This document shows, piece by piece, positions 411 through 42,738 of a stretch of 64,000 nt of DNA. Below the pieces are notes generated by a model. The model was not told the DNA's origin and did no database searches. It worked only from the letters and a program-made list of their open reading frames with translations. Position numbers and translations under genes: made by a program. Source of the stretch: Chitinophagaceae bacterium (GTDB lineage: Bacteria > Bacteroidota > Bacteroidia > Chitinophagales > Chitinophagaceae). Numbering within the stretch: the stretch's first letter is position 1; each line of letters starts with the position of its first letter. The stretch is from NCBI GenBank assembly GCA_019638595.1, contig JAHBTJ010000022.1, forward strand, positions 50,125-114,124. The letters are read 5' to 3'.

Positions 411-487
411 GAAGAAATTTGAGATTTGAAATTTAAGATTTGAGATTTACTAACCGCTGATTGCTGACAACTGATAGCTAATAGCTT
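411..487. repeat. Heptanucleotide array, leuC-leuD spacer
   Basis: The leuC-leuD spacer can be cut into 11 consecutive 7-nt words without a phase break. The first words are of the type TTTGAGA, TTTGAAA and TTTAAGA; the last are ACAACTG, ATAGCTA and ATAGCTT. The array begins at the base next to the leuD start codon and ends five bases before the leuC stop codon. The same word types recur in the arrays at 22.9, 30.0, 31.7, 37.3 and 42.6 kb. Confidence 0.8.
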
Positions 488-492
488 CTTTT

Positions 493-21604: not shown

Positions 21605-22867
21605 ATGCAGGATTTATACTCATTTACTGTTGCGGAAAGATTTTTGAAGTATGTTCAGATAGATACGCAGTCTGATCCGCAATCAGAAACAATACCCTCA
21701 ACGGCAAAGCAGAAGGATTTGTCTGGCTTATTGGTACAGGAACTTCGTGATATGGGCGTAGTAAACGCGGAGCTCGACGATTTTGGTTATGTATATGCTA
21801 CCATTCCTTCCAACACCTCTAAAAAAGTACCTGTTATTTGTTTTTGCTCGCATGTTGATACTGCTCCCGATTGCAGCGGCACAGGAGTAAAACCTGTAGT
21901 GCATAAAAATTACAACGGCAAGGATATTGTTCTGCCGGATGATGCCGCACAAGTTATTTCTACAACTGATCATCCGTATTTATTAAAAAAATCAGGAGAT
22001 GATATCATTACCGCTTCGGGCACTACTTTGCTTGGCGCAGACGATAAATCGGGGGTTGCAGTGATAATGGATATGGCGAACTATTTTATGCGGAACCCGG
22101 AAGTGAAACACGGCGATATTAAAATACTGTTTACACCAGATGAGGAAATTGGCAGGGGAGTAGATAAGGTAAACCTGGAAAAATTAGGAGCCGATTATGC
22201 ATATACGCTCGATGCGGGAGAGCTGGGCGCTTACGAAGATGAAACATTTTCCGCCGATAGTGTTACTATTACATTTTCAGGCGTCAGCGCTCATCCGGGA
22301 TATGCTAAAAATAAGCTGATCAACGCCTTGAAAATAGCGGCAGCTTTTATGGATGCGCTTCCCGGCAACGGGTTATCGCCCGAAACAACAGAAGGACGGG
22401 AAGGGTTTGTTCATCCTGTATATATAAATGGCATTGCCGAAAAGGTCACCCTTCAGTTTATTATCCGCGATTTTAATACGCGTAAGCTCAGCGAATATGA
22501 ATCGTTGCTGGAGCAAACACTTAACACAACGCTGAAGAAGTTCCCGGGCGCATCGGCTTCTTTTGAGGTAAAGGAACAATACCGCAATATGAAAGAAATA
22601 CTCGACCGGCATCCGCAGGTGAGTGAATATGCCATGCTGGCTATGGAAAGGGCGGGTATTAAGCCTGTGCGCAGCAGCGCGCGCGGAGGCACCGATGGTT
22701 CAAGATTGTCTTTCATGGGATTGCCCTGTCCTAATATTTTTACAGGCGAAATGGCCTTTCATGGCAAGCATGAATATGTAAGCGTGCAGGACATGCAAAA
22801 AAGCGTTGAAACCATTGTTTACCTGGCGCAGATATGGGAGGAGAGGGGTGAGGTTTGGGGTTTGTAG
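21605..22867 (+). CDS. pepT: Peptidase T (tripeptidase)
   Basis: This M20-family cytosolic aminotripeptidase (420 residues) removes the N-terminal residue of tripeptides. It shows the zinc-binding CSHVDTAPD near 82-90, LLGADDKSG with the bridging Asp, the catalytic Glu pair in TPDEEIGRG, and the later SARGGTDGS and MAFHGKHEY. The ATG at 21605 matches the family start (FLKYVQIDTQS shortly after); the upstream TTG in frame is not needed. The last four codons and the stop codon fall inside the heptanucleotide array that starts at 22853, so the C-terminal residues VWGL are repeat-derived. Confidence 0.95.
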   Translation: MQDLYSFTVAERFLKYVQIDTQSDPQSETIPSTAKQKDLSGLLVQELRDMGVVNAELDDFGYVYATIPSNTSKKVPVICFCSHVDTAPDCSGTGVKPVVHKNYNGKDIVLPDDAAQVISTTDHPYLLKKSGDDIITASGTTLLGADDKSGVAVIMDMANYFMRNPEVKHGDIKILFTPDEEIGRGVDKVNLEKLGADYAYTLDAGELGAYEDETFSADSVTITFSGVSAHPGYAKNKLINALKIAAAFMDALPGNGLSPETTEGREGFVHPVYINGIAEKVTLQFIIRDFNTRKLSEYESLLEQTLNTTLKKFPGASASFEVKEQYRNMKEILDRHPQVSEYAMLAMERAGIKPVRSSARGGTDGSRLSFMGLPCPNIFTGEMAFHGKHEYVSVQDMQKSVETIVYLAQIWEERGEVWGL

Positions 22868-23060
22868 TTTATGGTTTCGGGTTTATGGCTATTTGAGATT
22901 TGAAATTTGAGATTTGATGGCTGTTGCAGGTTGGGGGGCAGGTTACAAGTTTCAGGTTGCAAGTTTCGGGTTTGTGGTTTGTGGTGTCGCTCATAGCTCA
23001 CGGCTGATAGCTGACGGCTGAAAGCTGATAGCTCATAACCGACAGCCCATAGCTTAAATC
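22853..23060. repeat. Long heptanucleotide array between pepT and gcvP
   Basis: About 29 words of 7 nt run through this 208-nt stretch with a single phase change near 22937-22941. It passes through successive word types: GTTTGTA/GTTTATG/GTTTCGG, then GAGATTT/GAAATTT, then GTTACAA/GTTTCAG/GTTGCAA, then TGATAGC/TGACGGC/TCATAGC. It starts within the last codons of pepT and ends 13 nt before the gcvP stop codon, so it occupies almost the whole convergent spacer. Confidence 0.85.
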
Positions 23061-30000: not shown

Positions 30001-30126
30001 GAGATTTCTGATTTAAGCTATGAGCCGTTAGCTATGGGCTATCAGCAATTTATAGTTTATAGTTTATGGTTTGTTGTTTATTGTTGAGCACACTGCAACC
30101 TGTAACAAAGGTATAAGGTATACAGT
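30001..30126. repeat. Heptanucleotide array between antiporter and sulfatase
   Basis: Eighteen consecutive 7-nt words run without a phase break. They include GAGATTT, TAGCTAT, GGGCTAT, then TTATAGT twice, TTATGGT, and CCTGTAA, CAAAGGT, ATAAGGT. The array begins 4 nt after the antiporter stop codon and ends 36 nt before the sulfatase start codon, so any promoter of the sulfatase gene lies in or beside it. Confidence 0.85.
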
Positions 30127-31644: not shown

Positions 31645-31686
31645 TGTATGGCTGTAAGCTATCGGCTATGAGCTGTCAGCTATCAG
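31645..31686. repeat. Heptanucleotide array after sulfatase
   Basis: Six 7-nt words follow the sulfatase stop codon immediately: TGTATGG, CTGTAAG, CTATCGG, CTATGAG, CTGTCAG and CTATCAG. The array is interrupted by a different dispersed repeat and resumes at 31794. Confidence 0.75.
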
Positions 31687-31692
31687 CCCGTC

Positions 31693-31790
31693 TTGTCATT
31701 CAGAGCGAACAAATAGCTGCCTGGTTAAAGGTGAAACATTTTCGTGAGCGAAGAATCTGCCGGGGGTACCAGGTGTAAGCCGACTGTGCT
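31693..31790. repeat. Dispersed repeat of the GTCATTCAGAGCGAA type
   Basis: The sequence runs from TTGTCATTCAGAGCGAA to GTGAGCGAAGAATCTGC and an A+C-rich tail. This pattern resembles short repeats common in Bacteroidota intergenic regions (from general knowledge). It splits the heptanucleotide array in two, which suggests insertion into it. No open reading frame is present. Confidence 0.4.
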
Positions 31791-31793
31791 GTC

Positions 31794-31898
31794 AACCGTC
31801 ACAATGGAGAATGGATAATGGACAATGAAAATCATCAATTGTCAACCGTCAATCATCAACTGATCGCTCATTGCCCATAGCCGACGGCTGACAGCTAA
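31794..31898. repeat. Heptanucleotide array, MFS 3' end
   Basis: Fifteen in-phase 7-nt words: ACAATGG, AGAATGG and ATAATGG, then CAATTGT, CAACCGT and CAATCAT, then TAGCCGA, CGGCTGA and CAGCTAA. The last word overlaps the stop codon of the MFS transporter gene on the opposite strand (31895-31897). Confidence 0.8.
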
Positions 31899-36189: not shown

Positions 36190-37299
36190 ATGTCTAAATC
36201 CTATAGCCAGCTTAAGGCAATGTTCGCTATTACAAAGGCGGGGCTTATATCTATCTTCCGTAGTCCTTCGGCTGTTGCGTTCAGCTTTGCATTTCCATTG
36301 ATCTTTATACTGGTATTTGGCTTTTTGGGAGGGAGCGGGCGTGTTTCACTCAGGGCGGCATTTGCACCAGGTACCGATACCTCTGTTTACCTGTATAAAG
36401 CGATCAGCCATATACCAGGCATCAATATCGTGGACAAACCCGGAACGGAAATCAATGAAGACCTTGTAAAAGGAAGGCTTACCGCTGTTATTTCTATTCA
36501 AAAAAATACGGGGGCCGCATCGCCGGAGTATTTCATCAGGCTAAAAAGCTCCGAAGCCGTAAATCCTCAGAACATTGATGTGCTGCGATCCATACTTAAC
36601 TCCATTGTGAGTAACATTGACAAAAGAAAATTCCTTGATGCACCAACCGTTGCCGAAATCAGTAATGACGTTGAAAAAGTTCCCGGGCGTACATACCGTA
36701 CCATTGATTTTATATTGCCGGGGCAGCTTGGTTTTTCGCTGCTAAGCGCGGGCGTATTTGGAGTAGCCTTTTTATTCTTTAACCTGAGACAGCAACTGGT
36801 ATTAAAACGTTTTTTTGCAACGCCTGTCAGCCGTACGGGCATTGTGCTGGGCGAAGGGCTGAGCCGGGTTATATTCCAGTTGATCACCGCCGTTGTAATA
36901 TTGCTGGTAGGGTATTTCTTTTTTCATTTTACTTTAGTAAATGGCTGGCTAACCTTTTTTGAGCTGTTGGTGCTGAGCTTTATCGGACTGATCGTATTTA
37001 TGGCATTTGGATTTGTTGTGAGCGGCATTGCAAAAAGCGAAAGCACCATACCGCCGCTGGCAAATATTGTAACGTTGCCGCAGTTCCTGCTGGCCGGTAC
37101 CTTTTTCCCGATTGATAATTTTCCCAACTGGTTACAACCTTTTTGCAAAATATTACCGCTTACACATTTGAACGATGCCATGCGGAATGTTGCTTTTGAA
37201 GGCGCTCATTTAACGGATTGCGGTAAACAAATCGCTATCCTTGCGGCATGGTCTGTTGTTGGATATGCGCTGGCGGTAAAAGTGTTCAGGTGGGAATAG
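36190..37299 (+). CDS. ABC-2 type transporter permease
   Basis: This 369-residue inner-membrane protein has the ABC-2 permease layout: one N-terminal helix (about 25-47), a large extracytoplasmic domain (about 50-175), and five further helices in the C-terminal half. PQFLLAGTFFPIDNFP near residue 297 is the characteristic segment before the last helix. Such proteins export drugs, lipids or polysaccharide with a separate ATPase. No ABC ATPase gene is adjacent in this window, so its partner must be encoded elsewhere. It has its own promoter core. Confidence 0.88.
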   Translation: MSKSYSQLKAMFAITKAGLISIFRSPSAVAFSFAFPLIFILVFGFLGGSGRVSLRAAFAPGTDTSVYLYKAISHIPGINIVDKPGTEINEDLVKGRLTAVISIQKNTGAASPEYFIRLKSSEAVNPQNIDVLRSILNSIVSNIDKRKFLDAPTVAEISNDVEKVPGRTYRTIDFILPGQLGFSLLSAGVFGVAFLFFNLRQQLVLKRFFATPVSRTGIVLGEGLSRVIFQLITAVVILLVGYFFFHFTLVNGWLTFFELLVLSFIGLIVFMAFGFVVSGIAKSESTIPPLANIVTLPQFLLAGTFFPIDNFPNWLQPFCKILPLTHLNDAMRNVAFEGAHLTDCGKQIAILAAWSVVGYALAVKVFRWE

Positions 37300-37303
37300 A
37301 AGA

Positions 37304-37408
37304 GGATTTTGGATTTCTGATTGGTTGATTTCAGCTATCAGCTATGGGCTATGAGAAAACAAACTACAAACCCGAAACTATAAACCCGAAACCTGCAACT
37401 TGTAACCT
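37304..37408. repeat. Heptanucleotide array, permease to SRPBCC-like gene
   Basis: Fifteen 7-nt words in unbroken phase: GGATTTT, GGATTTC, then CAGCTAT twice and GGGCTAT, then CAAACTA, CAAACCC, GAAACTA, TAAACCC, then GCAACTT and GTAACCT. It starts 4 nt after the permease stop and ends 6 nt before the next start codon. The stretch CCTGCAACTTGTAACCTG is identical to one in the array at 42601-42733. Confidence 0.87.
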
Positions 37409-37414
37409 GATATT

Positions 37415-42165: not shown

Positions 42166-42238
42166 CCGCACAATCCTTGTATATCGTCAATTAATAATCG
42201 TTACGGCATTTAGTTTCGCGTAAAATGTTTCTGCCTGT

Positions 42239-42598
42239 TTACATTTTCTTTTCCAGGAACTGTTTCAGCACTACCGCGTTATTATGATCCGGATCTTTTG
42301 CCGCATACAGCAGCGTGATGTGTTTCTGTTTCAGGAGCTCGTTTATAAACCTGTTCACCGCATCCTCGTTGGCTTTTAATTCTGCGGTATAGCGTTTCCT
42401 GAATTCGGGCCACAATTCAACCGTATGGTCAAACCATTTTCTCAATGCTGCGGAGGGAGCAATATCTTTGATCCATTCGTCCAGCGAAGCTTTTTCTTTG
42501 GTGAGTCCCCTGGGCCAGAGCCTGTCCACCAGTACCCTGTAACCATCGGTACTCAGCGGCTCATCGTACACCCTGCGGATGATCATAACAGGTTTCAT
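42239..42598 (-). CDS. DUF488 family protein
   Basis: This 119-residue cytoplasmic protein belongs to DUF488. It shows the family features DRLWPRGLTKEKASLDEW (about 25-42), a WFDH segment near 56, and ITLLYAAKDPDHNNA towards the end. The function of the family is not established. The 5' leader is the heptanucleotide array at 42601-42733, which reaches to within two bases of its start codon. Confidence 0.88.
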   Translation of the reverse strand: MKPVMIIRRVYDEPLSTDGYRVLVDRLWPRGLTKEKASLDEWIKDIAPSAALRKWFDHTVELWPEFRKRYTAELKANEDAVNRFINELLKQKHITLLYAAKDPDHNNAVVLKQFLEKKM

Positions 42599-42600
42599 AC

Positions 42601-42733
42601 GTTTATAGTTTTTGGTTTGAAGTTTTGTGTTTTCTTAACTATAAACTATAAACCCGAAACTACAAACTTCAAATCCGTCACTCCCCTGCAACTTGTAACC
42701 TGTAATCCTGCTGACCGCTGATAGCTGACAGCT
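42601..42733. repeat. Heptanucleotide array, fba to DUF488 spacer (best example)
   Basis: Nineteen 7-nt words run without any phase slip. They show GTTTATA, GTTTTTG, GTTTGAA, GTTTTGT, GTTTTCT; then AAACTAT, AAACCCG, AAACTAC, AAACTTC; then CCTGCAA, CTTGTAA, CCTGTAA; then GACCGCT, GATAGCT, GACAGCT. The first block and the second are partly complementary and could pair. The array fills the spacer between the fba stop (42739) and the DUF488 start (42598). Confidence 0.9.
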
Positions 42734-42738
42734 TCTCA

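Follow-up and report, generated by a model that had tools for sequence, protein, structure and literature searches.

Polarised mosaics of degenerate 7-nt words at gene 3' ends in a Chitinophagaceae bacterium and its relatives

Introduction

What fills the spacer between the fba gene and the DUF488 gene of a Chitinophagaceae bacterium, how does such DNA arise, and does it act on the gene that ends there? The spacer lies in a 64,000-nt stretch of DNA that was analysed as a whole (hereafter the window), and a first-pass annotation, made from the letters alone, had described it as nineteen consecutive heptanucleotides in one shared phase, and had known of no named equivalent in Bacteroidota with words so degenerate. 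Tandem heptamers as such are known. According to excerpts of a survey, they are the most abundant intergenic tandem repeat in prokaryotes of many kinds, nothing points clearly to what they do, and slippage over a 7-nt polymerase contact has been proposed for them (Mori et al. 2018, PMC6344855). The long simple sequence repeats of Mrazek et al. 2007 (as cited in PMC4679880 and PMC4692102) belong to the same general phenomenon; both surveys, in their accessible portions, count repeats and do not describe the strongly degenerate, multi-word and polarised form reported here. TAACTGA and other heptamer repeats have been described in five Bacteroidetes (excerpts of MacGregor 2015, PMC4679880), and with these and the survey of Mori et al. 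(PMC6344855) the proposed novelty for Bacteroidota had to be given up.

Results and discussion

Seven-nucleotide periodicity in blocks joined out of phase

The whole stop-to-start spacer (140 nt; Table 1) showed 74/133 matches at a lag of 7 nt, whereas 2000 dinucleotide shuffles gave a mean of 35.2 (s.d. 5.1) and a maximum of 52. At other lags the counts were 32-48 (lags 1-6, 8 and 9) and 56 (lag 14), and the top 60-nt segment scored 73/120 for lags 7 and 14 together, a value reached by none of 5000 shuffles. Since the spacer stands far above all of its shuffles at lag 7, the 7-nt period that the first-pass annotation saw throughout the spacer is real, and so is the periodicity within each block. 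The single phase is another matter: from one block to the next the RRYY core of the words shifts its place (5, 0, 4 and 2, mod 7), and, because any stretch can be cut into heptamers, the total of 133 nt means little. Furthermore, in 1.26 Mb of the genome a run of one word class adjoins a run of another at 77 junctions, and all seven phases occur among these (14, 4, 12, 12, 16, 10 and 9 cases). One unbroken phase is therefore ruled out; what stands of the earlier description is a degenerate heptamer array that fills the spacer, built from 7-periodic blocks joined out of phase.

The most telling feature, which the earlier description had left out, is the presence of two arms of opposite strand composition. 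The predicted RNA fold of the whole spacer has a z-score of -3.6 on either strand, and in it the A/C-rich arm pairs with the first, GTTTNNN block. The AGCTGTCAGCTATCAGC words begin about 5 nt past the fba stop codon, and identical words follow fba in the sister species (G004). Five other spacers of the window carry strong arrays of similar words (Table 1) and a sixth carries a weaker one. No Rfam family matched the window at gathering scores.

Table 1. Features of the fba-DUF488 spacer and the other strong heptamer arrays, in window coordinates
Feature	Position	Strand	Basis
Entire fba-DUF488 spacer, filled with heptamer blocks	42599..42738	.	lag-7 statistics, sequence, RNA fold
G/T-rich arm of GTTTNNN words, nearest the DUF488 start codon	42601..42635	+	RRYY core in phase 5
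A/C-rich arm of AACNNNA words (AACTATA, AACCCGA, AACTACA, AACTTCA) and AATCCGT	42637..42678	+	phase 0
AACYTGY words; on the fba sense strand GTTACAAGTTGCAG	42683..42710	+	phase 4
AGCTGAY words; on the fba sense strand AGCTGTCAGCTATCAGC	42710..42733	+	phase 2
fba, class II fructose-bisphosphate aldolase; array after its stop codon	42739..43806	-	PF01116
DUF488 gene; array ahead of its start codon	42239..42598	-	PF04343, PF22752 (DUF488-N3i)
Array: ATTTGAR block, then GCTGATA block	414..490	.	
Array in convergent spacer: GTTTNNN, ATTTGAG, GTTGCAG and GCTGATA blocks	22837..23046	.	
Array: RGCTATS, GTTTATA and AACCTGT blocks	30014..30122	.	
Convergent spacer: outer RGCTATS and AGCYSAY blocks, AATGGAY / AAYCRTC words between	31645..31894	.	
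Array: AGCTATC, AACTACA/AACCCGA and AACCTGC blocks	37331..37410	.	

Arrays in the genome, the genus and the phylum

To place the spacer among others, 864 kb of the 7.06-Mb genome were examined (the window, C1 1-400 kb, C2 1-240 kb and C12 1-160 kb), with genes taken from mechanical ORF calls of at least 80 aa, the starts of which are approximate. An array was scored at 54/120 over 60 nt in the spacer census of these 864 kb and at 44/80 over 40 nt in the sister comparison, the polarity and terminator analyses and the held-out sequence, while the tests of position relative to stops and starts, including the held-out ones, and the scoring of second arms at the phylum loci used a separate block rule.

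The comparison of each spacer with its shuffles, which the first-pass annotation had put forward as a check, came out in its favour. Among the 405 spacers of at least 60 bp, 59 had 50 or more bases covered at lag 7, against 3-9 spacers at lags 5, 6, 8, 9, 10, 11 and 13; when spacers of at least 80 bp were scored singly, 54 were positive, versus 2-3 in five shuffles. The array spacers comprised 15/65 convergent, 35/253 co-directional and 9/87 divergent ones. Coverage at lag 7 was 0.34% of coding bases versus 7-17% of spacer bases, depending on spacer type, so that a 7-nt period above chance and near absence from genes, both marks of bacterial intergenic heptamer repeats, are found here together. 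The fba-DUF488 spacer is indeed unlike ordinary spacer DNA and belongs to a subset of spacers with excess lag-7 signal in this genome and its relatives. A further 400 kb (C12 160-360 kb and C49 1-200 kb), fetched once the polarity rule had been set and scored by the 40-nt rule, held arrays in 2/27 convergent, 11/106 co-directional and 3/43 divergent spacers; the preference for convergent spacers suggested by the first counts was dropped.

Over the whole genome, the GCTGATAGCTGAYAGCTGA pattern occurred 218 times with at most two mismatches, and its reversed control not at all. Six array sites with GCTCATAGCTGATAGC lie at a spacing of about 2-3 kb in G000:C6:648-11533 (G000 being the window species), which suggests a tandemly duplicated gene-plus-array module. 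Array load varies widely among species of the one genus, from 0 to 331 matches to one word pattern. One congener, G007 (9 contigs), had two such matches and, in a 60-kb sample, one AT-rich lag-7 region; by these two measures it is almost free of heptamer arrays and may serve as a comparison strain for seeing what stands where arrays would be. In small unbiased samples (20-60 kb per genome), G005 (331 pattern matches) and G007 (2) each contained one lag-7 region. In a set of 80 family fba loci with a total of 906,692 bp, there were 62 lag-7 regions, two of them runs of N (L092 and L140), and the other lags gave 5 (lag 5), 15 (6), 16 (8), 7 (9), 4 (10), 7 (11) and 6 (13); the longest of the lag-7 regions is a 322-nt array of AAGATATGAGAT words (L108:8529-8851). 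In the phylum, a triple of TGAATRG was present in 33 of 198 genomes.

Polarity and position relative to genes

Polarity, defined as a GC skew that is higher in the left than in the right half, was scored in arrays of at least 90 nt. In the first 864 kb, 35 of the 37 arrays ran from G-rich on the left to C-rich on the right, on either strand and with any gene orientation. The same order was found in 11/12 arrays of the held-out 400 kb, in 19/22 of the fetched part of G004 and in 26/28 among 79 other fba loci of the family, whereas spacers without arrays showed no polarity (convergent 13/29, divergent 36/60, co-directional 102/159).

The position of the blocks follows the gene ends. In co-directional spacers, pooled, G-rich blocks lay closer to the stop codon in 66/87 cases and C-rich blocks closer to the start codon in 66/91 (p = 7e-11), which recurred in the held-out sequence (11/12 and 10/15, p = 0.005); in convergent spacers, G-rich blocks were closer to the stop in 26/33 cases and C-rich blocks closer to the far edge in 28/33 (p = 3e-7). 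Divergent spacers gave 11/18 and 10/16, which is not significant, and p = 0.22 with the held-out data added. Followed 5' to 3' from a stop codon into the spacer, the strand is thus the G-rich one, as in the heptamer repeats of Xanthomonas and Nostoc. A first impression from the window that word order is tied to gene direction was not upheld, as the class counts had no clear sense bias.

For the phylum, the position of TGAATRG was scored at 29 of 30 loci, four of them from the family and none from the window species' own genome. Intergenic placement was found in 27/29 loci, and 2/29 lay inside genes. The motif was closer to the left gene in 19 of the 27 (median 17 vs 107 nt, p = 0.008), namely in 13/16 where that edge is a stop and in 6/11 where it is a start, and a second, C-rich arm lay rightward in 6/29 loci and leftward in none. 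In twenty 20-kb stretches around TGAATRG matches from ten phylum genomes, 12 of the 17 arrays of at least 90 nt were G-rich on the left (p = 0.14), including 11/16 outside the family; with an absolute skew difference of at least 0.5 at any length, a cut chosen post hoc, 13 were G-left and one C-left.

Terminators and folding

Intrinsic terminators were called where a stem lay within the 40 nt before a T-run, a rule that misses long hairpins. Behind fba, one of 6 family loci with an array had such a terminator, compared with 53 of 65 without one (p = 0.002, a value that overstates independence because the family loci are mutually related); these 71 usable loci remained from 81 after 10, among them the window's own, had been dropped. 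Lower array thresholds gave 2/10 vs 52/61 and 3/11 vs 51/60, and at a threshold of 42 two of the ten fba-downstream arrays, L094 and L123, looked doubtful by eye. In the window species, terminators were present at 5/51 array 3' ends vs 71/273 other gene 3' ends (p = 0.011). The held-out 400 kb gave 2/15 vs 40/126 (p = 0.23, not significant alone), and the pooled counts were 7/66 vs 111/399 (p = 0.002). As a rule, array 3' ends do not have the short stable hairpin and T-run of intrinsic terminators, long hairpins lying outside this test. The arrays of L090 and L124 consist of two complementary heptamer arms with a T-run behind them and may be long hairpin terminators beyond the 40-nt rule. It should also be noted that a terminator overwritten by an array without functional replacement would yield identical counts.

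Mean folding energy behind stop codons was about equal for arrays (-22.1 kcal/mol, n = 51) and for 80 sampled other gene ends (-21.0 kcal/mol). In a set of 31 arrays, folding was better than in shuffles, with a mean z of about -2. Arms of the same element, in contrast, were less complementary than arms taken from different elements (P = 0.0006 for n = 26 and 0.0036 for n = 40), with P at about 0.02 when arms were trimmed to 50 nt and 0.06-0.12 at 35 nt. A conserved hairpin as the selected feature was rejected on this ground, and one reading of the deficit is avoidance of perfect palindromes. Terminator hairpins themselves were not clearly polarised (40 to 25, p = 0.08; behind fba, 20 to 28); as a source of the polarity they are accordingly not supported, and the polarity of the arrays is left unexplained by a role in termination.

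A proposed boundary element at gene 3' ends

Taken together, the reading that we favour, albeit tentatively, is that the fba-DUF488 spacer is one of a set of fast-evolving boundary elements that sit at the 3' ends of genes and grow through 7-nt slippage and through copying between arrays. Each element strings together short blocks, every one made of degenerate 7-nt words, and reads from G(T)-rich to C(A)-rich in either direction, its G-rich words tending to start a few nucleotides past a stop codon. As their place and the exclusion of terminators suggest, such arrays would take the role of terminator or insulator of transcription wherever one or more genes end, often serving both directions. 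Since many different words are in use, the features that are kept are probably composition, period and polarity and not the sequence. Blocks gain and lose multiples of 7 nt, as the indels described below support, and a 7-nt slippage preference of the replication machinery, which has been put forward in the literature for heptamer repeats in general, would account for the period most simply.

Turnover and the reading as neutral repeats

We also consider it quite possible, and close behind the boundary-element reading, that polymerase slippage in 7-nt steps and copying between arrays spread functionless heptamers through spacers, where they would survive behind stop codons solely because little is lost there and would displace terminators by insertion. 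The near absence from coding sequence and the wide spread of load within the genus given above count in favour of this reading, and much of the turnover data agrees with it as well. Indels longer than 3 nt between the window species and G004 were multiples of 7 in 18/55 cases in array spacers vs 10/81 elsewhere (p = 0.005), so length changes in 7-nt steps. Word similarity fell with distance along the array (0.555, 0.496, 0.423, 0.357 and 0.313 at lags 7 to 35). In addition, 25 of 62 arrays contained an exact 25-mer that recurs in a second array, either on a separate contig or at a distance of more than 5 kb, and four contained such a 36-mer, whereas a word-shuffled control gave a mean of 0.4 for 25-mers and none for 36-mers. 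Long exact segments of this kind (21-36 nt) in distant, unlinked arrays are not expected from slippage within each array and fit copying between arrays, a step that the boundary-element reading would take over from the same data.

What the neutral reading does not predict is the strand-symmetric G-to-C polarity, absent from other spacers, and the constancy of place between the two sister species. Of the 405 spacers, 39 could be matched as colinear, and an array was present in both species in 9, in neither in 30 and in one only in none, despite differing contents. Lengths differed by up to 80% in array spacers, compared with a median of 1.8% in the others. Identity across the nine array pairs, by fifths, was 0.86, 0.63, 0.67, 0.78 and 0.82, against 0.80-0.88 in 20 other spacers. 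In some pairs the two species differ by entire heptamers, and in others interior blocks have been swapped for different words. These data support a pattern in which the place of an array stays while its contents change between close species.

More distant species were compared by eye. At one orthologous spacer, C-rich heptamers of other words stood at the same edge in 4/4 species; at a second, arrays were present in 3/4; and at a third (C1 233055), an array was seen in G008 and none clearly in G002 (1/2). Behind fba, no array was found in the congeners G003, G005, G006 and G007, and G008 has three words, so that the place is common to close species and less so across the genus. At the fba locus itself, G004 lacks the DUF488 gene that the window species has between fba and a fatty acid desaturase gene (window 42191-42738), and its array behind fba runs straight to the desaturase gene, a gene gain or loss at an array edge. 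The G004 spacer that matches window 37299-37414 measures 583 nt vs 115 nt and contains an insert bounded by inverted ends (CCGTCAACTTAA) as well as a tract with an 8-nt period (CCACGGAGCCACAAAGACACGGAG).

Arrays as possible scars of repaired breaks

Polarity is best explained by an account that we nevertheless hold to be improbable, in which DNA ends formed in spacers are trimmed back as far as the adjoining gene, G-rich heptamers are added to their 3' termini, either copied from other arrays or made by slipping synthesis, and the ends are then joined. Extension of 3' ends with G-rich words followed by joining makes the G-rich-to-C-rich order automatic, and head-to-head telomere fusions of eukaryotes have a comparable order. 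It would also fit that arrays abut genes and can fill an entire spacer, that the array interior is less conserved than the edges between the sister species, and that the arms are no more complementary than chance. Against it, divergent spacers should share the anchoring, which is not significant there. Nor do the counts point to an enzyme: the presence of the reverse transcriptase domain PF00078 (RVT_1), found in 7 of 12 genus genomes, does not match the load of the GCTGATA pattern. No copy of the domain turned up in G002, G006, G008 and G009 (46, 42, 58 and 15 pattern matches), and four were found in G007 (two matches). A preference of synteny breakpoints for arrays, finally, is unsupported. 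Although 8 of the 33 listed block ends between the window species and G004 lay within 200 nt of an array (score at least 44) vs 3.3% of random positions, several ends are the two sides of one array, 59 of the 405 spacers carry arrays anyway, and L045 had been picked for being array-rich; the claim that arrays are rearrangement joints was therefore not made.

Word structure and possible repeated protein binding

The words of the genome fall into the classes AACNNNA/GTTTNNN, AACYTGY/GTTRCAR, AATYTYA/ATTTRAR and AGCYSAY/RGCTRTS, and most of the commonest ones consist of an RRYY core and then three free bases. Within arrays, 51% of RRYY sites had another RRYY at +7, vs 6% in a 400-kb background. 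Such a core at 7-nt steps is what would be expected of a repeating site for a filament-forming protein on DNA or RNA, with one word per subunit; ribbon-helix-helix proteins on heptads and Rho or S1 on RNA are examples of repeated binding. This possibility, too, appears slight, a shade below that of break scars, given that the blocks are out of phase and that one genome uses at least four word classes. Other genera use different words (for example CTATTCA, CTACTCA, AGTAAGA and GGCAGTA), which by eye have no RRYY core, so the core is not general and the idea of RRYY-N3 as a universal grammar was given up, true as it is of the window species. Arrays did not consist of near-identical copies of one word; each held several degenerate classes. 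Among the 40 commonest words, five contain a GGG/CCC run and 35 do not, so that the regular GGG(G) runs of the Xanthomonas and Nostoc words are not a feature here, and TAACTGA was not among these 40 in any rotation or on either strand.

Movement by a Y1 (REP-associated) transposase or a reverse transcriptase would suit DNA that is dispersed, intergenic and present in many copies, yet it is very improbable, since matches to the Y1 transposase PF01797 (some of them fragments; 3-10 in 11 of 12 genus genomes and one in the twelfth) do not follow array load as measured by one word pattern (10 vs one GCTGATA match in G001, 9 vs two in G007 and 3 vs 58 in G008), counts that, with those of the reverse transcriptase domain, led to the rejection of both enzymes as the maker, and no array occurs in only one of the two sister species among the 39 spacers. 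REP/BIME palindromes have in common with the heptamer arrays that they are dispersed and extragenic, lie at gene 3' ends and show inverted symmetry. The arrays, however, have no conserved palindrome and no link to Y1 transposase copy number, and their words differ between genera.

Relation to known heptamer repeats

The arrays resemble the TAACTGA repeats of Beggiatoaceae, Cyanobacteria and Bacteroidetes in being intergenic heptamers, in length differences of 7 nt, there between close Cyanothece strains, and in the admixture of other heptamers, there in Microcystis, Gramella and Elizabethkingia (excerpts of PMC4679880). They differ in that the TAACTGA system uses a single word, placed in its main genome mostly immediately upstream of start codons, and the accessible portions of that account discuss neither a polarity of the present kind nor terminators (PMC4679880). 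The intergenic repeats of Xanthomonas (GGGNATC) and Nostoc (GGGGAYT) come closer, with fixed and variable positions in each word and, in Xanthomonas, well over 100 mostly intergenic loci per genome and, in the two strains, 70 and 75 sites that are paired convergently (excerpts of Rehm et al. 2015, PMC4692102). The G-rich Xanthomonas copies lie on the coding strand less than 50 bp behind stop codons and on the non-coding strand upstream of genes, which, by our reading of these passages, is the same G-to-C polarity in other terms (PMC4692102). Those genomes have one G-rich, quadruplex-forming word type each, whereas several classes with few GGG runs make up each array here, and in the excerpted text the orientation is discussed as possible gene regulation and not related to terminators (PMC4692102).

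Heptamer tandem repeats are thus already known and unexplained, while their polarised multi-word form appears to be new, though the Xanthomonas paper (PMC4692102) holds orientation data. In the literature that we searched, from which subscription journals were mostly missing, we found no terminator exclusion, no polarity as a property of arrays, no degenerate multi-word mosaics and no exchange of words at shared places. A bolder conjecture, which we regard as doubtful, is that the arrays of Bacteroidota, Xanthomonas and Nostoc, unrelated as their phyla are, represent one phenomenon defined by geometry and not by sequence, in which G-rich heptamers run 5' to 3' away from the stop and replace intrinsic terminators while the words turn over; whatever makes or keeps them would read period and strand polarity, and they would be either a widespread, sequence-tolerant transcription boundary or a telomere-like sealing of broken spacer ends. 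With polarity at stops, shared places with exchanged contents and terminator exclusion, the heptamer puzzle now yields specific predictions. If the arrays do terminate transcription, many gene ends in these genomes would be an unrecognised kind of boundary; if they do not, the polarity would still call for a directional mutational mechanism.

A hairpin repeat of another kind, CTATAAGGTTTGCAG ... GCAAACCTTATAG, was seen in the window spacer 2083-2211, the G004 counterpart of which is a spacer with a Y1 transposase match (C27:18284-18628). A similar hairpin repeat occurs in G005 (L255, G005:C32:59700-60100) at a place where the window species has a heptamer array.
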